The position numbers were made by a program, and so were the translations under genes. The notes below the pieces were generated by a model, which was not told the DNA's origin, ran no database searches, and saw nothing but the letters and a program-made list of their open reading frames with translations. From positions 1-32,186 of IMG/VR virus record IMGVR_UViG_3300009593_000071: 32,186 nt of DNA; one strand, given 5' to 3'. Below are positions 4,442 to 32,186 of this stretch, in pieces (position 1 is the first letter of the stretch; every line of letters begins with the position of its first letter). The DNA comes from a virus.

Positions 4442-5611
4442 ATGTCAGAAATATTTGAATCTAAATGGAGCGAAACTAAACAAGCTCTAACTGAAGGTTT
4501 AGAAGGCAACAAGAAAAAGACTATGGATGTAGTCTTAGAAAATACTAAAAGGTATTTGTCAGAGCAGGCGACTGCTGGGGCAACATCGGCTGGTAACGTT
4601 GCAACTCTAAACAGAGTGATTCTTCCTGTAATCAGACGGGTTATGCCGACTGTTATCGCTAACGAAATCGTTGGTGTACAGCCGATGACTGGTCCGGTTG
4701 GACAGATTCACACACTAAGAATAAGATATGCGGACACATCTGCTAACGATAACGTTATCGCTGGTGAAGAAGCATTATCTCCTTTCAAAATTGCGAGAGC
4801 ATACTCTGGTAACAACACTGAGTCTTCACCAAAAGCGGCATCAACTGCGGCTAAAGAAGGTACAGCGGGTAACAGATTATCAATCCAGATTTTGAAACAA
4901 CCTGTTGAAGCCAAGTCAAGAAAACTATCTGCAAGATGGACTTTTGAAGCGGCTCAAGATGCACAAGCACAACAAGGTATCGATGTAGAAGCAGAAATCA
5001 TGGCGGCATTAGCTCAAGAGATTACTGCTGAGATCGACCAAGAAGTAATTGGTTCTTTAAGAACATTGGCTGGTTCAGACGATGAATCTTTTGACCAATC
5101 TGCTGTATCTGGTACTGCAACGTTCGTAGGTGATGAACACGCGGCGTTATCTGTATTAATCAACAGAGTAGCAAACTTAATTGCGGCAAGAACAAGAAGA
5201 GGTGCTGGTAACTACGCAGTTTGTAGTCCACAAGCATTAACAATTCTTCAATCTGCAACAACATCGGCATTTGCTAGATCAACTGAAGGTTCTTTTGAAG
5301 CACCTACTAACACTAAATTCGTTGGTACGTTAAATGCTTCTATGAGAGTATACGTTGACTCATATGCGGCTGACGATACATCAGTATTAGTTGGTTACAA
5401 AGGTTCAAGTGAAGCAGACGCTCCGGCGTTTTACTGCCCATACATACCTTTAATGTCATCAGGCGTTGTTCTTGATCCATCAACTTTCGAACCGGTAGTA
5501 GGTTTCTTAACTAGATATGGTTATGTAGAGTTAACAAACACTGCATCATCTCTAGGTAATGCGGCTGACTACGTTGGAAGAGTTGGTATTTCAAACGTAA
5601 AATTCAAGTAA
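4442..5611 (+). CDS. 23: Major capsid protein gp23
   Basis: A 389-residue HK97-fold major head protein. The region RVILPVIRRVMPTVIANEIV followed by GVQPMTGPVGQIHTLRIRY is the signature used to recognise marine gp23. The N-terminal 41 residues are charged and helical, like the T4 delta domain. LSE-Q at residues 39-42 fits the gp21 (L/I)xE rule and is the likely maturation cleavage, with LTE-G at 16-19 an alternative. It is shorter than T4 gp23 (521 residues), with less inserted material. It has a Shine-Dalgarno (GGGGAAAG) and is followed by a strong terminator. High expression would come from the operon promoter at 1706, as no separate late motif is clear. Confidence 0.95.
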   Translation: MSEIFESKWSETKQALTEGLEGNKKKTMDVVLENTKRYLSEQATAGATSAGNVATLNRVILPVIRRVMPTVIANEIVGVQPMTGPVGQIHTLRIRYADTSANDNVIAGEEALSPFKIARAYSGNNTESSPKAASTAAKEGTAGNRLSIQILKQPVEAKSRKLSARWTFEAAQDAQAQQGIDVEAEIMAALAQEITAEIDQEVIGSLRTLAGSDDESFDQSAVSGTATFVGDEHAALSVLINRVANLIAARTRRGAGNYAVCSPQALTILQSATTSAFARSTEGSFEAPTNTKFVGTLNASMRVYVDSYAADDTSVLVGYKGSSEADAPAFYCPYIPLMSSGVVLDPSTFEPVVGFLTRYGYVELTNTASSLGNAADYVGRVGISNVKFK

Positions 5612-5634
5612 TCTTAGATTACGAATTTCATTCA

Positions 5635-5667
5635 AAAGGGCGGCTTTTATTAGTCGCCCTTTTTTTT
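5635..5667 (+). terminator. Strong intrinsic terminator after gp23
   Basis: AAAGGGCG (5635-5642) pairs with CGCCCTTT (5655-5662), followed by an 8-T run. The sequence is nearly the same as the terminator at 21701-21731. The next late promoter starts 5 nt downstream. Confidence 0.9.
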
Positions 5668-5671
5668 GTGG

Positions 5672-5679
5672 CTTAAATA
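5672..5679 (+). promoter_or_regulatory. Late promoter motif CTTAAATA
   Basis: Ends 6 nt before the ATG at 5686, with no Shine-Dalgarno. The predicted transcript begins at the start codon. It directly follows the gp23 terminator. Confidence 0.6.
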
Positions 5680-5685
5680 TCGTAG

Positions 5686-6354
5686 ATGCAGAAGATATTT
5701 TCAAATGGTTGCAGTTTCTTAACACCAAGACCCAAAGATGGTGTACACACATTCGTAAGTGATATAATTTCTAAAAAACTTAACAGTGAATTAACAAATC
5801 TTGCCATGGGAGGCAGGGGAAATAACAGAATAAGTTTCTCTACCAAGGTATGGTTCGAACAAAATAATAAAGAAAACACGTTTGCTATCATAGGCTGGTC
5901 CAGTAGTCATAGAAATGATTATGTTACCAACGATGGTTGGAAGAAAGGACGTGTACCTCAAACAGATCTTACGTGGAGAACCTGGAAAACATTGGACAAT
6001 GTAACTTTCATAAGACAAAAACAGGGTTGGGACATTGAAAATCACGCCACAATGAACTTTTTAGATAATATTTTTGACTTACAAAATTATTTTGAACGTA
6101 ATAAAATTCCATATGTCATGTACAATGCTCTACCAAACAATTTAAATGTAGATGTTCACGATTTTAATGTTATAAAAAATAGTTTGAACATGAAAAGATT
6201 CTTCAAACCTGAAATTAGTCATTACGAATATGTGCTTGACCGAAAGTTAATTGTCAGTCCCAATGATCCTCATCCAAGTTTAGAAGGTCACCAGCAGTGG
6301 GCAGATATGTTGTTTGAATTTGCAAAATCTAATAATTTATTTGAAATTAACTGA
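5686..6354 (+). CDS. SGNH/GDSL-like hydrolase, first copy
   Basis: A 222-residue protein with the block layout of the SGNH hydrolase superfamily. SNGCSF (6-11) would carry the nucleophile serine. GGRGNNRIS (42-50) resembles the oxyanion Gly/Asn blocks. NDPHPSLEGHQQWAD near the C-terminus contains Asp194 and His196, a DxxH-like catalytic pair with shortened spacing. Such enzymes act as esterases, often removing acetyl or acyl groups from sugars; the substrate here is unknown. No signal peptide is present. Translation appears leaderless. A second, very divergent SGNH-like gene lies at 6808, separated by a small membrane protein gene. Activity is inferred, not certain. Confidence 0.6.
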   Translation: MQKIFSNGCSFLTPRPKDGVHTFVSDIISKKLNSELTNLAMGGRGNNRISFSTKVWFEQNNKENTFAIIGWSSSHRNDYVTNDGWKKGRVPQTDLTWRTWKTLDNVTFIRQKQGWDIENHATMNFLDNIFDLQNYFERNKIPYVMYNALPNNLNVDVHDFNVIKNSLNMKRFFKPEISHYEYVLDRKLIVSPNDPHPSLEGHQQWADMLFEFAKSNNLFEIN

Positions 6355-6427
6355 CGCTATAATTATTTTTTTCCATACGTATACGATTCAAAGACCAAAT
6401 AAGGTAGTTTTATTCATAAATTAGACT

Positions 6428-6435
6428 TCTAAATA
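6428..6435 (+). promoter_or_regulatory. Late promoter motif TCTAAATA
   Basis: About 45 nt upstream of the ATG at 6480. The predicted mRNA begins at the hairpin 6442-6459, and a strong Shine-Dalgarno AAGGGAGG (6466-6473) follows. Confidence 0.65.
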
Positions 6436-6441
6436 TTTGAC

Positions 6442-6459
6442 AGGTTCACACATGAACCT
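6442..6459 (+). promoter_or_regulatory. 5'-terminal leader hairpin
   Basis: AGGTTC (6442-6447) and GAACCT (6454-6459) form a 6-bp stem with a 6-nt loop, starting 6 nt after the promoter motif, that is, at the predicted transcript 5' end. Confidence 0.55.
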
Positions 6460-6713: not shown

Positions 6714-6743
6714 TATAGATAACAAAATAATACTGTAAGCCAT

Positions 6744-6790
6744 TAGGGTGGTGTAACTAGCATAAAAACTTTTACATCACCCTATTTTTT
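6744..6790 (+). terminator. Intrinsic terminator after the small membrane protein
   Basis: A 13-bp stem with one G-U pair: 6744-6756 with 6772-6784, followed by six T (6785-6790). A late promoter motif begins 4 nt later. Confidence 0.85.
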
Positions 6791-6793
6791 AGT

Positions 6794-6801
6794 TTTAAAT
6801 A
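6794..6801 (+). promoter_or_regulatory. Late promoter motif TTTAAATA
   Basis: Ends 6 nt before the ATG at 6808, with no Shine-Dalgarno. A leaderless transcript is predicted. Confidence 0.6.
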
Positions 6802-6807
6802 CAGTAT

Positions 6808-7515
6808 ATGACAAGAATAATAATTGCTGGAGACAGTTGGGGAGCTCATAGTTATGAAAGGAACTATGTACACAAAGACCTTGAGGGATTTAAATGGAAG
6901 CCATCTAAAAAGTATGTGCTGTATCCAGGTCCTGGAGACTTTTTATCTAAATTAATTAACAATGAAGTTGTTACTATTGCCGATCACGGAGTATCTAATA
7001 CCGAGGCATTAGATAATCTTAATAAACTTGATTGCACGAACGATATTGTTGTATTCTATAAAACAGGGTTGTTGAGAGAAGTATATAAAGCATATTTAGA
7101 TAAAACAGATACACACAATACCAAAGATTGTAAAGCAGATTTTGAACATTACTCTAAAACATTTTATAAAAGGTGCTCAACAATAAAAGCGAAACATTTT
7201 TGTTTAATGGGAGGGTGTTCCGAAATACAGATGGACCAAGCAAAAAAATATAATATTAATGTTTTGGAACAAAGTGTTACAAAGTGGTTAATGCCCAAAG
7301 CAGATTTTACAGATAATATTTTTGATCCAACGGTATATTGGTTAGAATATCAATATAAATGTGATTATTTTAAAAAAGCAGTAGTACAATCATACGATAA
7401 AATAGAATTTTGGAATACACACATAAAGCAATTTTGTAAAAAACATCCTACAGTAGAATCAAACAAGAAAATTGCTAATAGAATTTACGAATACGTTACG
7501 GATAAATTAGATTGA
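6808..7515 (+). CDS. SGNH/GDSL-like hydrolase, second copy
   Basis: A 235-residue protein opening with IIIAGDSWG (residues 4-12), the block I motif of SGNH hydrolases with Ser10 as nucleophile. DHGVSNTEAL (59-68) fits block II, MGGCSEI (134-140) may stand for block III, and KKHPTVESNKKIA near residue 211 provides the C-terminal histidine (His213). The aspartate usual three residues before that His is missing (Cys). No signal peptide. The N-terminal YPGPGDFLSKLI stretch suggests a nearby substrate loop. It is not closely similar to the 5686 protein, so the two are probably different enzymes. The last 31 nt overlap the end of the convergent radical SAM gene. Confidence 0.62.
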   Translation: MTRIIIAGDSWGAHSYERNYVHKDLEGFKWKPSKKYVLYPGPGDFLSKLINNEVVTIADHGVSNTEALDNLNKLDCTNDIVVFYKTGLLREVYKAYLDKTDTHNTKDCKADFEHYSKTFYKRCSTIKAKHFCLMGGCSEIQMDQAKKYNINVLEQSVTKWLMPKADFTDNIFDPTVYWLEYQYKCDYFKKAVVQSYDKIEFWNTHIKQFCKKHPTVESNKKIANRIYEYVTDKLD

Positions 7516-8498
7516 TTTGCAACATTAGTTTGTTGGGCAACTACACCTTGCTTATGGCTGTCACTCCATTTAAATCTTGCTCTAGCACAGGTATTACATA
7601 TTAAATTTTCTTTTGCTTTTGAATATGTTTTATCAAAAATTAACTTATGTGCTGAACGTAGGTTATTCCAAACACCTTGTATTCCTATTTCAAAAACGTT
7701 ACCGTAGTTGGTTTTCCCGTCAACATCATCACAACATAATACAGCAGTACCGTCGACTAAAACTTCTAGTCTTCTAAAAATTTTTCCAAAATCCATTGCA
7801 CACCCTTGAACAAAAGTCTTCTGACTTATTGCAAACTCTTTGTGTTCAACCCATTTACCATCGCCATCGCCCAAACGATTGTTTAGCCAATTGGTTTTAA
7901 CCTTTACAATACCTAAAGTATATCTTTGAAAATCATTTCTTAATTTACTTTTCATAGCATTATCTATTGTTTGATGATCTCTATGCTTCAATCCAATTCG
8001 CATAAGTTTAGATACTTCGGGATAATCTTTTTTTACTTTTAATAGTCTTTGTTTTGTTACTTCCCAATTTACACCCATTTGTTCTCTTATTTCTTTATCA
8101 TTAAAACCTATAATTGATATGTTTAATTTTTTAATTAAATGTTTGTATTTGTCTATAATTTTACAATTTTTTTCTGTGAATGAAATACCATTTGTTGTTA
8201 TTATTACTTGAATTTTATTTTTATCTGCCATCTCACAAATCATTTCTAAATCTTTACATACCAAAGGATCGGAATATCTCCATGGTTGTATGTGTGCAGT
8301 CCATGGTGCAACATTATGTTTTTTGAGTAACCCAGCAAAGTCATTCATTAATATTTCTATTTGTTCATGCGACATTTTTTTTGATGTGTAATTTTTATCT
8401 TCACCCAACCAAGAATATGGACAACAAAAACATTTTGCGTTGCATAAGTTTACAGGTTCAAATGCTATTTCAGTGGGTATTGGTAAATGAGGATACAT
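7485..8498 (-). CDS. Radical SAM protein with SPASM-type C-terminal domain
   Basis: A 337-residue protein. NLCNAKCFCCP (17-27) holds the Cx3Cx2C cluster motif (Cys19, 23, 26) that binds the [4Fe-4S]/S-adenosylmethionine centre. The barrel continues through ITTNGISF (99-106). A C-terminal SPASM/twitch-like region carries further cysteines at 233, 255/256, 301 and 304 (GCAMDFGK, VLCCDD, ICNTCARARF) and would hold auxiliary clusters. SPASM proteins often modify peptides or carbohydrates; no substrate peptide is apparent next to it. It starts 1 nt after the stop of the 2OG oxygenase gene and lacks a Shine-Dalgarno, so the two are probably one coupled unit. The 3' end overlaps the convergent SGNH gene by 31 nt. 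Confidence 0.85.
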   Translation of the reverse strand: MYPHLPIPTEIAFEPVNLCNAKCFCCPYSWLGEDKNYTSKKMSHEQIEILMNDFAGLLKKHNVAPWTAHIQPWRYSDPLVCKDLEMICEMADKNKIQVIITTNGISFTEKNCKIIDKYKHLIKKLNISIIGFNDKEIREQMGVNWEVTKQRLLKVKKDYPEVSKLMRIGLKHRDHQTIDNAMKSKLRNDFQRYTLGIVKVKTNWLNNRLGDGDGKWVEHKEFAISQKTFVQGCAMDFGKIFRRLEVLVDGTAVLCCDDVDGKTNYGNVFEIGIQGVWNNLRSAHKLIFDKTYSKAKENLICNTCARARFKWSDSHKQGVVAQQTNVANQSNLSVTYS

Positions 8499-8499
8499 A

Positions 8500-9105
8500 T
8501 TAATCTAAAAAATATTCTTTTGTTTTATATCGTTGTTTAATAAAAAAGTTTAATGTAATTCTGTTTGATTGTTCAGTACTGTTGTAACTATGCCAAGTTT
8601 GATTGTCTTGGCCACAAAAATTAAATGTTGAATTTGGTTTCCATTCTACTTCTTTTACAAAGGCATCTTTTGAATTTTCGGTGTATAATTTTGTTCCAGC
8701 ATTTGTTTCTGGTGTAACATATGTTACCGATGACCAAATCTTTGCTCCTGTTTCATAATGAATTTTGAACTCATATGGTTTAGGAGGAGTTACACCAATG
8801 TAAGAATGAATAACGTGGTCTCCCCACCATCTATATTTTGGATAAACTTCGACAAGTTGTTTAACATTATCTAACAACTTACGACTAATTTCATATATTT
8901 GATCATACCAATTTATGTTATGCTTTTTAAAATCTCTTGGCAAAACATAAAACAATTTGTCAGTTTTTATGTTTAGTAGTTGTTGACAGTCTTCTTGTAG
9001 TATTTTAAATTGAGATTCTTCTATGTGGTTTTCAATTATCTGATGCGGCCACGGATCATTAATTAATGGTGTGTCAATACTTTTTGTAAAATAACTCTCT
9101 AACAT
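8500..9105 (-). CDS. 2-oxoglutarate/Fe(II)-dependent oxygenase-like protein
   Basis: A 201-residue protein whose C-terminal half fits the double-stranded beta-helix of 2OG-Fe(II) oxygenases. IHYETG gives the HxE metal pair (His116, Glu118), NAGTKLY (135-141) is the following conserved turn, TWHSY holds the distal His172, and SNRITLNFF holds Arg182 that would bind 2-oxoglutarate. This is a complete facial triad plus arginine. Such enzymes are frequent in marine T4-like phages; substrates include proteins, lipids and nucleobases. First gene of a two-gene minus-strand unit with the radical SAM gene. A late motif AATAAATA ends 5 nt before the ATG, so translation is probably leaderless. Confidence 0.8.
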   Translation of the reverse strand: MLESYFTKSIDTPLINDPWPHQIIENHIEESQFKILQEDCQQLLNIKTDKLFYVLPRDFKKHNINWYDQIYEISRKLLDNVKQLVEVYPKYRWWGDHVIHSYIGVTPPKPYEFKIHYETGAKIWSSVTYVTPETNAGTKLYTENSKDAFVKEVEWKPNSTFNFCGQDNQTWHSYNSTEQSNRITLNFFIKQRYKTKEYFLD

Positions 9106-9110
9106 ATTAA

Positions 9111-9118
9111 TATTTATT
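9111..9118 (-). promoter_or_regulatory. Late promoter motif AATAAATA (minus strand)
   Basis: 5 nt before the ATG of the 2OG oxygenase gene, with no Shine-Dalgarno. Confidence 0.6.
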
Positions 9119-9142
9119 GGTGATCTATTAATGAAAATAATT

Positions 9143-9227
9143 GCTAAATAGCAGTGTCTATATAAGAGCCAACAATTAAGTTGGACTTATGCGGAACCAA
9201 CCGCGTAGACCTAGAACGTCAAGGAGG
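9143..9227 (+). promoter_or_regulatory. Late promoter and structured leader of gene 9236
   Basis: GCTAAATA at 9143-9150. The leader then folds as ATAAG..CCAAC/GTTGG..CTTAT (9162-9190, with a small internal loop) and GCGG/CCGC (9191-9204), before the Shine-Dalgarno AAGGAGG (9221-9227) placed 8 nt from the ATG. Confidence 0.6.
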
Positions 9228-20518: not shown

Positions 20519-20551
20519 AAAGGCCCTGTAGCAATATGGGGCCTTTTTTTT
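20519..20551 (+). terminator. Strong intrinsic terminator
   Basis: AAAGGCCC (20519-20526) pairs with GGGCCTTT (20539-20546), with an 8-T run (20544-20551). It ends the 840-residue fibre transcript. Confidence 0.9.
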
Positions 20552-20662: not shown

Positions 20663-21676
20663 ATGACAGCAAAAAACTTTAGAGTTAATAACGGTTTAGA
20701 AACGGGTGACGTAACTATAACAGCATCTTCAAATGCAGTTACAGGTGTTAGTTCAATTACATTGGACAACTCAAACGCACCAGGTGCCAACGCCGTATTG
20801 GCTAATAAAAAATATGTTGATGATCAATTGACTGCTAAGGCTAGCATCATTTCTGGATCAAACAACGTAACTGTTGGTGGATCTTCTGTAACACTAGACA
20901 TAGGTGGAACTGACGAACTTACTGTAACTTCAGGTCACGTAAGAATAGCAGGAAACTTAACTGTTGACGGAACAGAAACAATCACTAACACAAACACACT
21001 TTCAGTGGAAGATAACATTATCGAATGTAACAGAAACGTTTCTTCTAATGCTGGTATGCCTAGTTTTACAGGCTTAAAAGCAAACAGAGGTGGAACATCT
21101 TCGGCTACAGAACAAGACTTGTTCTGGGTTTGGGATGAAACATTCGCAGATGACGGAACAACTACTCACGGTAACGCGGGTGGTGCCTGGTCTGCATTTA
21201 GATCTGCAAACGATTTAAATGACAAATCACTAGTTGATATAAGAGCAAACATTGTACACGCACAAGCGACTTCGGCGTCATACGCGGACGTTGCCGAGCG
21301 TTTCGAAGCAGACGCTCCTATGTCAGAAGGTGCAGTTGTATCACTAGGCGGTGAAGCAGAGATCACAGAAGTAAACGGTGAATTATCTGATACTGTATTT
21401 GGTGTTATTTCTACACAACCAGCATTCATGATGAACTCAGACGCAGGTAACAGCGAATCTCATCCATTTGTTGCAATGACAGGTAGAACTCCAGTTAGAG
21501 TTATCGGTCAAGTAAACAAAGGTGACAGATTAGTTAGTTCAACTGTAAAAGGTACTGCAAGAGCAATCACAGGTGCTGACAGCATTAATCCATTCCACGT
21601 TATTGGTAGAGCTTTAGAGGCGAAAACTGATGACGGTATTGGACTTGTAAATGCAGTTGTAAGAACAAACAACTAA
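20663..21676 (+). CDS. Fibre protein with C-terminal self-cleavage/chaperone-like (peptidase G2-type) domain
   Basis: A 337-residue protein. The N-terminal part is a fibre segment with a KKYVDDQLTAKASI hinge (about 49-62) and the shared module TETITNTNTLSVEDNIIECN (about 104-130). The C-terminal 130 residues begin SASYADVAERFEADAPMSEG, then AVVSLGGEAEIT, FGVISTQPAFMMNSDAG, MTGRTPVRVIGQVNKGDRLV. This pattern (YADvAErF..dap...G.vv.lGG, GViSt.Pa.mmN, GR.pv.v.G.v..GD.lv) is the domain found at the ends of many phage fibres and related to the peptidase G2/autoproteolytic group. It may help trimerise the fibre and may cut itself off; no catalytic residue can be assigned from sequence alone. It has its own promoter and terminator. 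Confidence 0.72.
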   Translation: MTAKNFRVNNGLETGDVTITASSNAVTGVSSITLDNSNAPGANAVLANKKYVDDQLTAKASIISGSNNVTVGGSSVTLDIGGTDELTVTSGHVRIAGNLTVDGTETITNTNTLSVEDNIIECNRNVSSNAGMPSFTGLKANRGGTSSATEQDLFWVWDETFADDGTTTHGNAGGAWSAFRSANDLNDKSLVDIRANIVHAQATSASYADVAERFEADAPMSEGAVVSLGGEAEITEVNGELSDTVFGVISTQPAFMMNSDAGNSESHPFVAMTGRTPVRVIGQVNKGDRLVSSTVKGTARAITGADSINPFHVIGRALEAKTDDGIGLVNAVVRTNN

Positions 21677-21700: not shown

Positions 21701-21731
21701 AAGGGCGGCTTTTTAGTCGCCCTTTTTTTTT
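21701..21731 (+). terminator. Strong intrinsic terminator (copy of the gp23 one)
   Basis: AAGGGCG (21701-21707) pairs with CGCCCTT (21718-21724), followed by 9 T. Almost the same sequence as 5635-5667. Confidence 0.9.
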
Positions 21732-21827: not shown

Positions 21828-24155
21828 ATGGCCATAGGTCGTATATCAGGGTCGGTACTAAAGTCCAATCTAACTAGGAATGGCGTCGACCTTGCATTTG
21901 AAACAAACCTGTTATACCTCGATGTAACAAACTCGCGAGTAGGTATTGGTACTTCAGAACCAGCAACAACATTTCACGTAAACGGAACAATTAGAGGATC
22001 AGGCATTAACGTCAATAATGCTTACACTCTTCCTACATCTGATGGGTCAGCAGGACAGCAACTTACAACAGATGGTTCTGGAACTGTTACTTGGGCAGAC
22101 AAAGATGGTTCAGCAGACATTTCAATAGCAGGAAATGAAATAAAAACTACAACATCAAATTCAAATTTAGAACTATCAGCAAACGGTAGTGGAAAAGTTT
22201 CTCTTTATGGTGCATACACATTACCAACATCAGACGGAAATGCTAATCAAGTTTTAGGAACTGACGGTTCTGGTACTTTAAGTTTTGTTAACAACACAAT
22301 AGACACAGAAATTTCAGACGATACTACAATACAAATATTGAATAAAACAGGAATAAGAACTACTGCAACAACATTCGACTCATACGCAACAGGAAATTTT
22401 GATTCTTGCTTGTATTATGTTGTGTCAAGAGACGAAGTAAATGGTCAGATCGCAACACAAAAGATATTAACAGTCCACAACAACACAACACCTTTTGTTT
22501 CAACATCGAGTGTTACAAGATCAGATTCAACAGCAGGACAATCATTTGATGCCGCAATATCAACAGGAACACTGAGCCTACAAGCAACAGGTAACGCAAA
22601 TGTAAACAGTTTGTCTGCATACAAAATAAGTTTAGGTGATAACAGTTCGGCCGCTACAAGTGGTAACACCAAAGTTATCATAAATGCAGATGTTGACTCT
22701 GCTATCGAAAATTTAGATACTTTTACACACGCATCTCACAGAGGAGCAAAATATTTTATTTCAGTAAATGACACAACAGACAATGAATTAGAAGCAATAG
22801 AATGTATGGTCGTACACAACGGCAATGCATCTAAAATTGTTTCTTACAACTCAACAAGAACAGGTTCAACATCTCTTATAACACTGTCAACAGACATAAG
22901 TGGCAATGACGTTAGGTTAAGAGGTACAGGTGCTAGAGCAAATTTAAATGTTAAAATGCACAGAATATTGTTGACTGATTCAGAGAATCAAACAACAGGA
23001 ATCAACTACAAAAAGATAGGTGCCACAACAGTTTCATCTAGTTCTACATCACTCGACACATTCAATTTATCCAATGCACACGGTGCCTTTTATTATGTTG
23101 TAGCACACAACAGTTCAGAAGACGAAAGTAGTATATCAGAAGTTTCGGTTGTAAGTGATGGCACAGACGCATACGTTTCTACAGGTCCAACACTTTCAAC
23201 TAAAGGCACAGACCAATTAACATTTACAGCCGCACTATCAGGTGATATTGTAACGTTGAGTGCCGCTTCATCAAGTGGTGGATCAACTACTGTAAATGCA
23301 TATAGAATAAATTTAAAAAGAGAAGTTTCAAGTCCAGGTACAGACGTATTAACAGAGTCTAGCACACCAACAATTACAGGACACTACACATTTAATGACA
23401 GTGTTGAGATAAGACTTGGTTCAGATGCAGATGCAAATATAAAACACACGGGTACTAATCTTAATGTCAACGAAACAACAGGTGATATTAACATCAGAAC
23501 TTATGCCAATGACAAGGATGTTGTAATTTCGACAGATGACGGCAGTGGTGGAATAACTGAGTATGTTGTAGCAGATGGTTCAACTGGTGCAGTTAAATTA
23601 AAACATTATGGCACAACTGTTTTTGAAACAACAACTACAGGTGCATCAATCACAAACACATCAACGGATGACGCTTTATTAGTTACTACAACAGAAGATT
23701 CAAGTTCAGCAGGACCGGTAATATCGCTAAAAAGAAACAGTTCAAGTCCGGCAGATGCAGACTATCTAGGACAGATCAAATTCAAAGGTGAGAATGACAA
23801 CGATCAGGAAGTAAACTACGCAAAAATATCAGGTAAGATACTAGATGCATCAGATGGATCTGAGGACGGAATATTAGAGTTTGCATTCATGAAGAATGGA
23901 TCGCAAAACATATCAGGAAGATTTAGATCAGACTCATTACAATTATTAAATGACACAAATTTAAGAGTATCAGGTCACGTAGAACTAGGTGTATTGGCTA
24001 GTGATCCATCAACAACTGCCAACTTTGCACACATATACGCCAAAGATGATTCATCAAGTGCTGAAGTATTTGTGCAAGACGAAGCAGGAAACGTTACAAA
24101 ACTTTCACCACACAACGAAAAAGGAAATTGGGAATACTTCTCAAAAAATACATAA
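21828..24155 (+). CDS. Fibre protein, apparently truncated by an in-frame TAA
   Basis: A 775-residue protein. Residues 1-60 (MAIGRISGSVLKSNLTRNGV, LAFETNLLYLDVTNSRVGIG) match the shared N-terminal anchor. A 'YTLPTSDGsaGQqLtTDGSGTvtW' unit occurs twice (about 65-90 and 126-152). Then come three repeats of a beta domain recognised by 'FDSCLYYVVSRDEVNGQ', 'HRGAKYFISVNDTTDNELEA' and 'HGAFYYVVAHNSSEDESSIS', with GDNSSAAT/RTGSTS loops (about 185-490). The C-terminal third has LGSDADANIKHTGTNLNVNE and 'SSAGPVISLKRNSSSPADAD', the latter shared with the next gene. It ends SPHNEKGNWEYFSKNT and then TAA, but the same frame continues 28 codons to the TAATG junction at 24242 with what looks like the normal C-terminal tail. 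Confidence 0.78.
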   Translation: MAIGRISGSVLKSNLTRNGVDLAFETNLLYLDVTNSRVGIGTSEPATTFHVNGTIRGSGINVNNAYTLPTSDGSAGQQLTTDGSGTVTWADKDGSADISIAGNEIKTTTSNSNLELSANGSGKVSLYGAYTLPTSDGNANQVLGTDGSGTLSFVNNTIDTEISDDTTIQILNKTGIRTTATTFDSYATGNFDSCLYYVVSRDEVNGQIATQKILTVHNNTTPFVSTSSVTRSDSTAGQSFDAAISTGTLSLQATGNANVNSLSAYKISLGDNSSAATSGNTKVIINADVDSAIENLDTFTHASHRGAKYFISVNDTTDNELEAIECMVVHNGNASKIVSYNSTRTGSTSLITLSTDISGNDVRLRGTGARANLNVKMHRILLTDSENQTTGINYKKIGATTVSSSSTSLDTFNLSNAHGAFYYVVAHNSSEDESSISEVSVVSDGTDAYVSTGPTLSTKGTDQLTFTAALSGDIVTLSAASSSGGSTTVNAYRINLKREVSSPGTDVLTESSTPTITGHYTFNDSVEIRLGSDADANIKHTGTNLNVNETTGDINIRTYANDKDVVISTDDGSGGITEYVVADGSTGAVKLKHYGTTVFETTTTGASITNTSTDDALLVTTTEDSSSAGPVISLKRNSSSPADADYLGQIKFKGENDNDQEVNYAKISGKILDASDGSEDGILEFAFMKNGSQNISGRFRSDSLQLLNDTNLRVSGHVELGVLASDPSTTANFAHIYAKDDSSSAEVFVQDEAGNVTKLSPHNEKGNWEYFSKNT

Positions 24156-24242
24156 ACAGGTAAAGTTGTGAGAATTGATATGGAAGAGATGATTAAAGAT
24201 CTTGAACAATTAACAGGTAAAAAATACATTAAGGAGGAATAA
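24156..24242 (+). other. In-frame continuation of the fibre gene beyond TAA (lost or read-through tail)
   Basis: After the TAA at 24153-24155 the same frame stays open for 28 codons: TGKVVRIDMEEMI, then KDLEQLTGKKYIKEE, and stops at 24240-24242, overlapping the next ATG. 'HN.kG.WEYfSkN.kTGKv.riNME.mi.dlE.ltGk.yi' is the usual tail of such fibre proteins as I recall them, so the TAA probably replaces a sense codon (AAA to TAA is one change). The tail also contains the Shine-Dalgarno AAGGAGGAA of the next gene. A separate start at GTG 24168 or ATG 24180 is possible but less likely. Confidence 0.6.
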
Positions 24243-24877
24243 TGCCAAAGCGATATAGTTTGATGAAAGTTGAAGATGACGATTCTACCGGTAAACCGGT
24301 AACGGATAAAGATAGTGACTTTCACAAAAAACAAGTATTAGAAAAACTTGTTGTAAAAAATACATCAACTAGTGAAAATAATATATTGATGATCACTAAA
24401 GCAGACACTTCTGCCGCTGGTCCTCATATGACGTTTCATAGAGATTCTACCAGTCCAGCACAAGGTGATCAAATAGGAAAAATACAATGGAAAGGCATGA
24501 ATGATGACGGTGAGCAAATCAGATATGCAAGTATTCATTCAGTAATTAAAGACGCAAGAAAAGGCACAGACGATTCTAACTTAACATTTACGATAAGAGT
24601 TGGTGGACAACATAAGTCAATGTTGGTTGTACAAAACGATGGAGTACTTGTTCATGTAGACAAACCGTTAATGTTACAAACAACAGGATATAAAAAAACA
24701 AGATTATACGGAACTGCCGCAACGGCAAGAAGAGATATTGTATTTCCTGATCAAAGTGGTACTGTAATGGTTAACGAATCAGGTAAAGTAATGGCAACTG
24801 ACTTGCCTACAAGTGATCCCAACAATGCGGGTCAACTTTGGAACGATTCTGGTACTGTAAAAATTAGTGCTGGTTAA
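24242..24877 (+). CDS. Fibre-associated structural protein
   Basis: A 211-residue protein. Residues 45-115 (MITKADTSAAGPHMTFHRDS, DQIGKIQWKGMNDDGEQIRY, ASIHSVIKDARKGTDDSNL) repeat the module in the C-terminal third of the upstream fibre (SSAGPVISLKRNSSSPAD.. LGQIKFKGENDNDQEVNY). The end, LPTSDPNNAGQLWNDSGTVK then ISAG, is a very common C-terminus of marine phage tail and fibre proteins. Start overlaps the stop of the open frame extension (TAATG) with Shine-Dalgarno AAGGAGG just upstream, so it was built to be coupled to a full-length upstream fibre. Its stop shares TTAA with the convergent Nudix gene. Confidence 0.72.
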   Translation: MPKRYSLMKVEDDDSTGKPVTDKDSDFHKKQVLEKLVVKNTSTSENNILMITKADTSAAGPHMTFHRDSTSPAQGDQIGKIQWKGMNDDGEQIRYASIHSVIKDARKGTDDSNLTFTIRVGGQHKSMLVVQNDGVLVHVDKPLMLQTTGYKKTRLYGTAATARRDIVFPDQSGTVMVNESGKVMATDLPTSDPNNAGQLWNDSGTVKISAG

Positions 24878-27979: not shown

Positions 27980-28741
27980 ATGTCAGAACTACAAACAGGA
28001 CAACAAGATATATTCGATTACGTTAAAAATAACCTAGGTGAGGGTATGATTGACGTTGAATTAGACCCAAAACATTACCAAACTGCGTTAGATCGAGCCA
28101 TTAACAGATATAGACAAAGATCGTCGAATGCTGTGGAAGAATCTTATGCTTTTTTAACACTGAAAAAAGACCAGAACAAATATATTCTTCCGGATGAGAT
28201 TATTAACGTGAGAAGATTACACAGAAGAACGGTAGGCTCTCGTACAGAAGGTGGCCAAGGTGGTACACTTTTTGAACCGTTCAATCTTGCATACACTAAC
28301 ACTTACTTGTTAAGAGCAGGAGCAACGGGTGGACTAGCCACTTACTATGCTTTTGCATCTTATCAAGAGTTAGTTGGAAAAATGTTTGGTTCGTTCATAC
28401 AGTTCCATTTTGATGTAGCAACAAAAACTTTAACAATTACACAAAGACCAAGAGCAGACAACGAATCTATTTTGTTACATACTGATAATTACAGACCTGA
28501 CATAACATTGTTCAAAGACATCTATTCTAAACCTTGGATAAGAGATTATACTCTTGCAGTTTGTAAAGTTATGCTAGGACAAGCAAGATCCAAATTCCAA
28601 ACAATCGCTGGACCACAAGGTGGTACAACACTGAACGGTGATGCACTAAAAAATGAAGGTACAGCAGAAATTGAAAGACTAGATCAAGAAGTTAATAATT
28701 TCTCTGAAGGCGGCACACCACATAGTTTTGTGATAGGTTAA
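27980..28741 (+). CDS. 13: Neck protein gp13
   Basis: A 253-residue neck protein homologous to T4 gp13 (309 residues), acting with gp14 at the head-tail connector. Features: IFDYVKNNLGEGMIDVELDP, HYQTALDRAINRYRQRSSNA, YILPDEIINVRRLHRR, then FGSFIQFHFDVATKTLTITQ and YRPDITLFKDIYSKPWIRDY followed by a helix with CKVMLGQARSKF, the typical gp13 layout. An ATG at 27974 lies two codons further upstream, but it overlaps the last base of the TATAAATA motif and would not be in the mRNA, so ATG 27980 (5 nt from the motif) is chosen. Confidence 0.85.
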   Translation: MSELQTGQQDIFDYVKNNLGEGMIDVELDPKHYQTALDRAINRYRQRSSNAVEESYAFLTLKKDQNKYILPDEIINVRRLHRRTVGSRTEGGQGGTLFEPFNLAYTNTYLLRAGATGGLATYYAFASYQELVGKMFGSFIQFHFDVATKTLTITQRPRADNESILLHTDNYRPDITLFKDIYSKPWIRDYTLAVCKVMLGQARSKFQTIAGPQGGTTLNGDALKNEGTAEIERLDQEVNNFSEGGTPHSFVIG

Positions 28742-28757
28742 TTCATTACCTAAAATT

Positions 28758-28765
28758 TTTAAATA
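28758..28765 (+). promoter_or_regulatory. Late promoter motif TTTAAATA
   Basis: 8 nt before the ATG at 28774, with no Shine-Dalgarno. Confidence 0.55.
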
Positions 28766-28773
28766 ATATTACC

Positions 28774-28974
28774 ATGGCAAGAGTAACAGTACAAGTACAA
28801 TCTGACGGAAAGAAAAAAGGTGTTAGTAAGTTAAACTACAACGAACTAAATCAATTGGTAAATCAACTAGAGTCAGATGTTAATAAAGCAAAAAATAATC
28901 CTAATCTACAGAAACAAATATTAAATCAAGTTTCAGACGCAAAAACAGAGATTGCAAAACGTATCATAAAGTAG
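28774..28974 (+). CDS. Small helical protein of unknown function
   Basis: A 66-residue basic protein: short beta start (MARVTVQVQSDGKKKGVS), then one long helix with heptad-like spacing (YNELNQLVNQLESDVNKAKN, LQKQILNQVSDAKTEIAKRI), likely a coiled-coil hairpin. I do not recognise a family. It lies between gp13 and the dNMP kinase, with a late promoter motif of its own. Confidence 0.6.
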   Translation: MARVTVQVQSDGKKKGVSKLNYNELNQLVNQLESDVNKAKNNPNLQKQILNQVSDAKTEIAKRIIK

Positions 28975-28986
28975 TATAATCTATAA

Positions 28987-29601
28987 ATGCTTATAGGTAT
29001 TTGTGGATTAATAGGTTCAGGAAAAGACACAGTCGCAGAAAGACTGGTTAATGAACACAGTTATAAAAGAGATTCTTTTGCAAAAAGTTTAAAAGATGCA
29101 GTAGCATCAATGTTTAATTGGGATAGAGATCTTCTAGAAGGCAGAGGACAATCCAGCAGACATTGGCGTGAACAACCTGACAAGTTTTGGAGCGAACGTT
29201 TTGGCAGAGAAGTTTCACCAAGATCAATATTACAACAATTTGGCACAGAAGTTATGCGTGGGCAAATGTATGACGGCATATGGGTTGACAGTTGCATAGG
29301 TAGATACAAAGGTGAAAATACTGTTATATCTGATACAAGATTTCCTAATGAAATTAAAAGAATAAAAGAATGTGGTGGAGTAATTTTACTAGTAAAAAGA
29401 TTTAAAGATCCGGATTGGTTTACAAGTTATGTTGAGGGCAATATAGAACCTAAAGGTATACATTCTTCAGAATATATGTGGGCAAAATCCGAGTTTGATT
29501 ATATCATTGAAAATAACGGAAGTTTAGAAGAACTAAATGAGAAGGTCGATAGTTTTATACATCGGCTTCAAGATCCCCAACTTTCCAACGCAGTTTCCTA
29601 A
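28987..29601 (+). CDS. 1: Deoxynucleoside monophosphate kinase (gp1-like)
   Basis: A 204-residue P-loop kinase: IGICGLIGSGKDTVAE (residues 3-18) is the Walker A with the 'GSGKDT' typical of phage dNMP kinases. RDSFAKSLKDAVASMFNWDR is the helix binding the monophosphate, and SILQQFGTEVMRGQMYDGIW is the strongly conserved gp1-family segment, followed by VISDTRFPNEIKRIKECGG as Walker B region. It makes dNDPs from dNMPs for phage DNA synthesis. A little shorter than T4 gp1 (241 residues). The ATG lies inside a late-like TATAAATG, so that motif cannot drive this start; it is probably read from the upstream transcript or an unseen early/middle promoter. Tail overlaps the HNH gene by 47 nt. Confidence 0.88.
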   Translation: MLIGICGLIGSGKDTVAERLVNEHSYKRDSFAKSLKDAVASMFNWDRDLLEGRGQSSRHWREQPDKFWSERFGREVSPRSILQQFGTEVMRGQMYDGIWVDSCIGRYKGENTVISDTRFPNEIKRIKECGGVILLVKRFKDPDWFTSYVEGNIEPKGIHSSEYMWAKSEFDYIIENNGSLEELNEKVDSFIHRLQDPQLSNAVS

Positions 29602-29914
29602 CACTTGCTAGTCGTTGGCAATTAGCACACACAGTTTTTAAATTTACTTCATTAACATTATTCTTATTTCCGTCTATAAAAATAACATCTAGTTGGATAT
29701 GTTCTATTGCTTTAAAACTGCATAATTCACATCTTTTCTTTTTAACATAACCAGATCTTTGTAGCGGAGTTACACCACCTATCCTAAGATTTTTTGCTTT
29801 TCTAATACAAGTATCGCACTGCTTACGCCAGTATATTTTTTTGCCTTTTTTATAAGCATAAGCTCTTGGCTTTTCCTTGCATTTAACACACAACGGTCTA
29901 GTTCCAATATCCAT
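29555..29914 (-). CDS. HNH-like zinc protein with altered catalytic positions
   Basis: A 119-residue protein with four CxxC knuckles: Cys9/12, Cys33/36, Cys62/65 and Cys96/99. The segment LDVIFIDGNKNNVNEVNLKT then VCANCQRL (75-102) has the beta-beta-alpha-metal layout of HNH nucleases (IDGN..NN..NL.T.C.NC), but the position where the catalytic His stands in active enzymes (H before IDGN) is Phe79, and the last His of the motif is Gln100. Zinc binding is thus kept while nuclease activity is doubtful; it may be a DNA- or RNA-binding protein. Related proteins near structural genes of cyanophages are annotated as HNH endonucleases. Late motif GTTAAATA lies 8 nt before the ATG. Convergent to gp1 with a 47-nt overlap. 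Confidence 0.7.
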   Translation of the reverse strand: MDIGTRPLCVKCKEKPRAYAYKKGKKIYWRKQCDTCIRKAKNLRIGGVTPLQRSGYVKKKRCELCSFKAIEHIQLDVIFIDGNKNNVNEVNLKTVCANCQRLASVRKLRWKVGDLEADV

Positions 29915-29922
29915 AGTAATCG

Positions 29923-29930
29923 TATTTAAC
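29923..29930 (-). promoter_or_regulatory. Late promoter motif GTTAAATA (minus strand)
   Basis: 8 nt before the ATG of the HNH-like gene, with no Shine-Dalgarno. Confidence 0.5.
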
Positions 29931-29947
29931 GTCGCCTATATAGGTAC

Positions 29948-29966
29948 CAAAATTAGGTTAATTTTG
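29948..29966. repeat. AT-rich inverted repeat between the HNH-like gene and gp18
   Basis: CAAAATTA (29948-29955) and TAATTTTG (29959-29966) with a 3-nt spacer. Role unknown; no T-run suggesting a terminator on the plus strand. Confidence 0.4.
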
Positions 29967-29986
29967 TCATAAAAACAGCAATCACT

Positions 29987-30031
29987 ACTAAATAACGTAT
30001 AACATTAATATTAATGTGAATTTGCGAGGAG
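29987..30031 (+). promoter_or_regulatory. Late promoter and hairpin leader of gp18
   Basis: ACTAAATA at 29987-29994. A perfect 16-nt palindrome, ACATTAATATTAATGT (30002-30017), starts 7 nt after the motif at the predicted mRNA 5' end. Shine-Dalgarno GAGGAG (30026-30031) is 10 nt from the ATG. Confidence 0.7.
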
Positions 30032-30041
30032 ATTAAACAAT

Positions 30042-32186
30042 ATGGCAACATTAACTAGTCCAGGAGTAGACGTTTCAGTAATAGATGAAAGTTTTTACGT
30101 ACCGGCGGACGCAGGTACTACACCTTTATTCATAGTAACTTCAGCAGAAGATAAGAAAGCCGGATCAGGCACAACTACTGCTGTTGGAACACAATCAACA
30201 AACGCAGGTACAGTATACCTCGTAACATCACAAAGAGAATTAACAGAGACTTTTGGTGATCCAAAATTCTACACAGATGCATCTGGAAATCCATTAAATG
30301 GTTACGAACTAAATGAGTATGGATTACAAGCGGCATACTCTTTCTTAGGAGTGGCAAACAGAGCATACGTTCTAAGATCAAACTTAGACATTTCAAATTT
30401 AACTGGTAGTGCAATAGCACCTACTTCAAATCCAACTGACGGAACATATTGGCTAGATCTCGCAAGTTCTAAATTTGGTATATTTGAATGGTCATCAACT
30501 GATCAAGCATTTACAACTAAAACTCCAACTTTAATTACAAGTGTAAGTTCATTGGCTGGAAATGTTTCAACAGGAGCACCTAAACAATCAGTAGGTAACA
30601 TTGGTGATTATGCTATTAACACAACTCACGTAACAAATAAAATTTACTTTAAAAATGACGCAAATGCTTGGGTACATTTAGGATCAACTGCATGGCAAAT
30701 TTCACATCCAACTATTACAAGTTCAAAAACAAATAGTGGAACAAGTGTAACATCAGGTCATTCTATTACAATCAACGGTACAAGTGTATCATCGTCAGCA
30801 ACAACTTTAACAAACGTTGCGGCAAGAATTAATGCGGCATCAATTACAGGTATAACAGCGGCAATCGATTCAACAACAGGTTTCTTAGAAATTTATTCAG
30901 ATGGAACATCTGCATCAGATGGTTCAACAGTTGATGGTAAAATCACTATTGCTAACGCATCTGGAACATTGATGACTGACGCAGGATTAACTGCTGGTAC
31001 ATATGCGGCACCGAAGTTTTTACAATCACCGCACACATCAAGACCTGAATGGAAATCAGCGGATACAACTCCAAGACCAAATGGTTCAGTTTGGTTTAAA
31101 ACAACAAGTCCAAACTCAGGAACAGATATTAAAATTAAATTGTATAGTTCTTCAACAGCAAGTTTCAGTGCTGTATCATCTAATATGTATGCTAACAATC
31201 ATTCAGCAATTTACAATTTAGATACTACAGGTGGAACTTCAATATCAGTTGGAACTTTATACGCACAATACAATGTAACAGAACAAGGTGGTTTAGATGC
31301 AACTCCAAATGTTGGTGACTTCCAAATATTTAGATATGAAGGTGGAACAACAGTTGTTTCATCTAAAAGTACTTTCCCATCATTCACACACAATGAAACA
31401 TTTAGCATTCAAGAAAGTGTTAAAAATTCAAGTACACTAGCAAGTGCAAAAACTGTAACTGTAAAAAGTTTAGATGGATCAACAGCGGCTGACAACGAAG
31501 ACTTTGTTGCGGCAGTTAATGGTGCAGGCTTAACAAACGTTACAGCAGAAGTAATCACTTCAGGTGTATATGCAGGTGCAATTAAAATGACACACAAACT
31601 TGGTGGCGACTTTAGAATGGTTGACACATCAGGTACACCTTTAGCAGATGCAGGATTTAGCAACTCAACAGCTCACTCTTATGGAACATACACAGCAAAC
31701 TCAAGCACATTAATTGATAACTTGTATGATGCTCCAACTGGTGAGGCAATGGACTCATCAGCAAACAATGCCGTTGTAGCAACGAACTGGAAGAGATTAT
31801 CTTACAGTGCTTCAACTACAACTCCTTCAAATGAAGCGGCAGACGGAACATTATGGTACAATACTAATTTAGAAGCAGACATAATGGTTCACAACGGAAC
31901 TACTTGGAAAGGTTACGTAGAAGTTTACGGATCAACTGATCCAAATGGTCCTCAATTTTCTGCAAGTGCACCAACTACACAATCAGATGGTTCAGCACTT
32001 GTTGACGAAGACTTATGGATTGATACAAGTGATTTAGAAAACTTTCCAAAACTTTACAAATATAACACATCTGCAACAATATCAAATTCAACTTCAGGTG
32101 TAGCAGTTACAACAACTGGTGCGGCTTGGGAATTAGTTGACAACGCAGACCAAACTACAGAAAATGGTGTAGTTTTTGCAGATGCA
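30042..32186 (+). CDS. 18: Tail sheath protein gp18, N-terminal part (3' truncated by window edge)
   Basis: Open from ATG 30042 to the window end, 715 codons without a stop. The opening MATLTSPGVDVSVIDESFYV then PADAGTTPLFIVTSAEDKKA is the conserved N-terminus of T4-type contractile tail sheath proteins, followed by the ELTETFGDPKFYTD region and GLQAAYSFLGVANRAYVLRS, typical of the sheath core. GTYWLDLASSKFGIFEW (about 134-150) is typical of marine homologues and recurs in weaker copies (GSVWFKTTSPNSG, GTLWYNTNLEADIMVHNGTT, EDLWIDTSDLENFPKLYKYN). T4 gp18 has 659 residues in all. Here 715 residues pass without reaching the C-terminal core, so a large repeat-bearing domain is inserted on the outside of the sheath. 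Strong leader and Shine-Dalgarno fit its high copy number. Confidence 0.88.
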   Translation, partial: MATLTSPGVDVSVIDESFYVPADAGTTPLFIVTSAEDKKAGSGTTTAVGTQSTNAGTVYLVTSQRELTETFGDPKFYTDASGNPLNGYELNEYGLQAAYSFLGVANRAYVLRSNLDISNLTGSAIAPTSNPTDGTYWLDLASSKFGIFEWSSTDQAFTTKTPTLITSVSSLAGNVSTGAPKQSVGNIGDYAINTTHVTNKIYFKNDANAWVHLGSTAWQISHPTITSSKTNSGTSVTSGHSITINGTSVSSSATTLTNVAARINAASITGITAAIDSTTGFLEIYSDGTSASDGSTVDGKITIANASGTLMTDAGLTAGTYAAPKFLQSPHTSRPEWKSADTTPRPNGSVWFKTTSPNSGTDIKIKLYSSSTASFSAVSSNMYANNHSAIYNLDTTGGTSISVGTLYAQYNVTEQGGLDATPNVGDFQIFRYEGGTTVVSSKSTFPSFTHNETFSIQESVKNSSTLASAKTVTVKSLDGSTAADNEDFVAAVNGAGLTNVTAEVITSGVYAGAIKMTHKLGGDFRMVDTSGTPLADAGFSNSTAHSYGTYTANSSTLIDNLYDAPTGEAMDSSANNAVVATNWKRLSYSASTTTPSNEAADGTLWYNTNLEADIMVHNGTTWKGYVEVYGSTDPNGPQFSASAPTTQSDGSALVDEDLWIDTSDLENFPKLYKYNTSATISNSTSGVAVTTTGAAWELVDNADQTTENGVVFADA

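Follow-up and report, generated by a model that had tools for sequence, protein, structure and literature searches.

A premature TAA in the fibre-like gene of an uncultured T4-superfamily phage: probably a young single-base lesion or a base error

The locus considered here raises a simple question: why does the reading frame of a phage fibre-like protein stop 28 codons short of the point at which the same frame meets the next gene? Within the window, that is, the whole stretch of 32,186 nt that was analysed, the ORF of this virion protein (21828–24155, plus strand) encodes a repetitive, fibre-like sequence of 775 residues and terminates at an in-frame TAA (24153–24155, plus strand). Behind this stop the frame stays open for another 28 codons (24156–24239, plus strand), reading TGKVVRIDMEEMIKDLEQLTGKKYIKEE, and closes at a second TAA (24240–24242), which overlaps the ATG of the following gene at 24242 by 1 nt (TAATG, 24240–24244, plus strand). 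The preliminary description of the locus was exact in these coordinates, and it was also right that such an overlap is found elsewhere in the window, like arrangements being present at 1027, 3351 and 15943. Judging from comparison with homologous sequences, we consider it highly probable, at roughly nine chances in ten, that the premature TAA is a one-off and very young single-base lesion, arising either from a true nonsense substitution among the phages sampled or from a base error of the contig. The odds between these two are roughly even.

The window itself covers 32 kb of a T4-superfamily myovirus genome, in which portal, prohead protease, major capsid protein, head–tail adaptor and tail sheath proteins can be recognised. 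Its major capsid protein (4442–5611) is ~70% identical to those of large phages such as Sinorhizobium phage Phosso (469 kb) and Pseudomonas phage PA5oct (~287 kb), the closest among isolates, and this likeness suggests that the fragment may come from a large T4-superfamily phage. Relatives of the fibre sit on IMG/VR contigs, some of them 196–273 kb long. A marine origin of these relatives seems plausible from the likeness to Synechococcus phage and marine roseophage fibres, taken together with general knowledge. Upstream of the fibre gene, two strong intrinsic-terminator-like hairpins (20519–20546 and 21701–21724) flank a gene (20663–21676) whose product has a weak likeness, below the curated cut-off, to Peptidase_G2, an autoproteolytic chaperone domain.

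The codons behind the premature stop had been proposed to fit the usual end of this class of fibre, and the homologues bear this out. When X was placed at the stop column of the query, 44 loci were retrieved, all of which run on past that position and carry I, K, N, L or R there. Wider profile scans, one of them built from the pre-stop part alone so as to catch tail-less relatives, brought the set to 115 distinct IMG/VR homologues. Every one of the 115 runs on in frame through the stop column, with no stop ahead of the tail's end; in 112 of them the fibre ends at the same column as the second stop of the window. The preliminary description had itself named a stop shared by all homologues at this position as an outcome that would speak against it, and the finding thus withstood this check. 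Nine tail residues are invariant, being common to 16 aligned relatives. Since these residues are shared and all homologues continue in frame, the resemblance goes far beyond chance, and by homology the continuation behind the TAA is a real tail of the fibre.

A single base is enough to account for the stop, as had been suggested: the lysine codon AAA, one change away from TAA, is the commonest codon at this column (74 of 115 homologues). Overall, ~4.8% of the single-base changes in the fibre ORF would yield a stop. The stop has the context TAAA, in which six other ORFs of the window also end. Written as a degenerate DNA pattern, the junction occurs once in the window, against an expectation of 0 in shuffled sequences. 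With a stop at the column the pattern had no matches in IMG/VR or in GTDB genomes, and with a sense codon there it was found in at least 120 stretches. A tight DNA pattern recovered no near-identical contigs from IMG/VR with either base at the site. By these comparisons, no sequence examined other than the window has the stop, and the frame that follows it encodes a conserved and undamaged homologous tail.

What the stop would remove is part of a conserved C-terminal domain of ~76 residues (24012–24239, plus strand), which is present in its complete form in the homologues and is described in our alignment (A5) by the motif HIYAKD..SSAEVFVxDEAGNVT.ISPHN..GxWxYxSxN..TGK.VR.NME.MI..LE.LTG. This end-domain occurs in more than 100 distinct IMG/VR sequences, where it terminates fibre proteins of phage contigs whose open frames differ greatly in length, from 252 to 1321 aa. 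The records of ten relatives hold one copy each, and elsewhere in the window there is no second copy able to substitute. AlphaFold2 applied to L001, a relative in which the frame is intact (48 aligned sequences), gave a confident C-terminal region; the end-domain modelled alone (76 residues, 45 sequences) reached a mean pLDDT of 88.6 in the best model and 73–80 in the other four. The predicted fold has strands at 6–13, 16–23, 28–32, 41–45 and 52–56 and a C-terminal helix at 57–68, and the stop column falls into the 46–51 turn that links the fourth strand (WEYYS) to the fifth (VVRI). The 28 severed codons would correspond to the last strand, the C-terminal helix and a short end, so that truncation is predicted to take away somewhat over a third of the domain. 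Since the site lies in the turn ahead of the last strand and helix, the stop would cut a folded domain according to the model, and we infer that such a truncation would prevent proper folding or assembly.

The end-domain has no clear counterpart in the resources that we searched: there was no Pfam match above cut-off, PHROGs gave weak matches only, and a PDB sequence search gave none. Foldseek on PDB returned nothing at E 0.001 with either a 180-aa model or the 76-aa domain. The best structural match by VIA-align (Z 5.8, rmsd 3.6, 64 residues) is within the background range, and polo-box and KhtT domains, for which the VIA-align matches are only middling, were not accepted as structural relatives. 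Partly similar predicted viral structures were found in BFVD with the 180-aa model. At E 1e-5 the last 59 codons had no match among isolate phage records, and a query with a remoter member of the family found chance matches only. Being conserved and without a clear match in curated families or isolate phage records, the end-domain is a useful by-product of this analysis and a more lasting one than the stop.

How old, then, might the stop be? On the evidence of the sequences compared, its age is bounded solely by the absence of decay in the 28 codons. Over the 177 nt of the end segment (59 codons), the T at 24153 is the sole base of the window that has no match in any of the 115 homologues. The 84-nt tail has no window-private base, each of its residues occurs in relatives, and it differs from the tail of L001 by one residue. 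Relative to the closest relatives, the pN/pS of the tail is 0.11–0.37, which is of similar order to that of the codons ahead of the stop; in this stretch of the fibre end the nearest relatives are ~10% different from the window. Since a long functionless period should have left its marks, the undecayed tail argues that the stop is either young or an error.

The T may stem from a true nonsense substitution in the phages that were sampled, tolerated or selected, leading to a fibre with a shortened end-domain; we give this close to an even chance. It is consistent with a contig that is otherwise clean. Where relatives cover the window, i.e. apart from 5609–6455, 6718–9217 and 28739–32186, we found no other supported in-frame stop or frameshift, and among ~1,900 columns at which the relatives are all alike the window departs from them at 5, with 4 of these differences being synonymous. 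Moreover, a broken tail-fibre gene can be viable, as in the kayvirus mutant 812K1/420 (PMC6445280). However, there is no second example of such a stop in the 115 homologues or in the pattern scans, and the domain that would be cut is one confidently predicted to fold.

The other possibility, to which we assign a probability slightly short of one half, is that the T is a sequencing or assembly mistake and that the true population encodes a full-length fibre. In favour of an error, the T is the sole private base in 177 nt and would break a domain kept by all relatives. In addition, the gene lies in a mosaic region in which strains share blocks, and in such a setting mixed-strain assembly can go wrong. 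The scarcity elsewhere of broken genes and of window-only bases at invariant columns counts to some extent against this explanation, as it indicates that the contig is generally sound. Yet a generally sound contig is compatible with a true mutation and with an isolated error alike: the clean sequence speaks mildly against a contig full of errors, and a single error would still fit it. Two of the three options that had been put forward for the TAA, namely recent nonsense mutation and sequencing or assembly error, fit everything that we found.

The mosaic nature of the region is apparent from the comparison with a single relative, L013. Over ~23.8 to 24.87 kb, a span that holds the fibre end together with the next gene, identity between the window and L013 is 63–84%, whereas the flanks of this cassette (23800–24877) are mostly 86–99% identical to L013, which is their best match; inside the cassette the best matches are instead L010, L011, L001 and L003. 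The fibre end and the gene next to it have thus been swapped together, as one unit. Such exchange is well known for phage adhesion genes. Variable host-recognition clusters have been described in marine T4-like phages (PMC7029224).

The next gene (24242–24877, plus strand) encodes a fibre-like protein of 211 aa and belongs to the same exchangeable cassette. Its ribosome-binding site, AAGGAGG (24231–24237, plus strand), lies inside the severed tail codons; GGAG or AGGA is found here in 22 of 22 distinct sequences with the TAATG overlap, the window included. The overlap as such is seen in just 22 of 116 distinct sequences, while 90 others are without a close ATG, so that a coupled neighbour is not found in all of them. 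Should the mutation be real, translation would end in the turn ahead of the last strand and C-terminal helix, and the fibre would be made without a complete end-domain. As AAGGAGG is kept, the next gene could still start by itself; it would be translated from its own intact site, presumably without the close stop–start coupling.

The third option of the preliminary description, regulated read-through of the TAA to give short and long fibre forms, did not hold up and appears very improbable. The tail past the stop is indeed intact and conserved, but the recency of the stop explains this equally well. Selection would have to keep a stop that serves read-through, yet no relative, whether among the 115 homologues or in the pattern scans, has a stop there. 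Furthermore, TAA is an ordinary terminator of this phage, ending 24 of the 30 other surveyed ORFs of the window (25 of 31 with the fibre ORF). Nor did we find a stimulatory RNA structure behind the stop, where the RNA folds no better than shuffled sequences (z = 0), or any tRNA in the window. Equally improbable is a stop that is real and functional in this lineage, with mostly short fibres and a smaller share extended by read-through to the whole end-domain, as a private variation of the fibre tip. An alternative code with a recoded TAA was ruled out: TAA is a common terminator, there is one supported in-gene TAA, and the window has no detected tRNA. Least probable of all is re-initiation at GTG 24168 (a 24-codon ORF) or at the internal ATG 24180 (20 codons), both of which are close behind the stop, to give the tail as a small protein of its own: inspection revealed no convincing ribosome-binding site for it, the segment belongs to the fibre in all homologues, and the Met encoded by the ATG is an invariant residue inside the tail.

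An isolated lesion or base error is, therefore, the reading that we prefer, and on its own it matters little, concerning as it does a single base in one uncultured phage contig. It is nonetheless instructive to set the locus beside known systems. The repetitive region ahead of the end-domain (residues ~620–739) resembles proteins annotated as tail fibre in Synechococcus phages such as S-B43 and S-H34 (up to ~58% identity), although in these phages the match ends ahead of the conserved C-terminal domain. Programmed alternative C-termini of phage tail proteins are exemplified by the E / E+E' frameshift of P2 (PMC3091744), and in the window, too, one start could conceivably give proteins of two lengths. 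However, the P2-type signal is a frameshift common to related phages, whereas the stop in the window is unique to one sequence. Finally, the premature stop of kayvirus 812K1/420 lies in the tail fibre complex gene orf119 and resulted from a 77-bp deletion in an isolated phage, whereas the stop described here is due to one base and is known from uncultured contig sequence alone; what the two have in common is a fibre gene broken by a premature stop.
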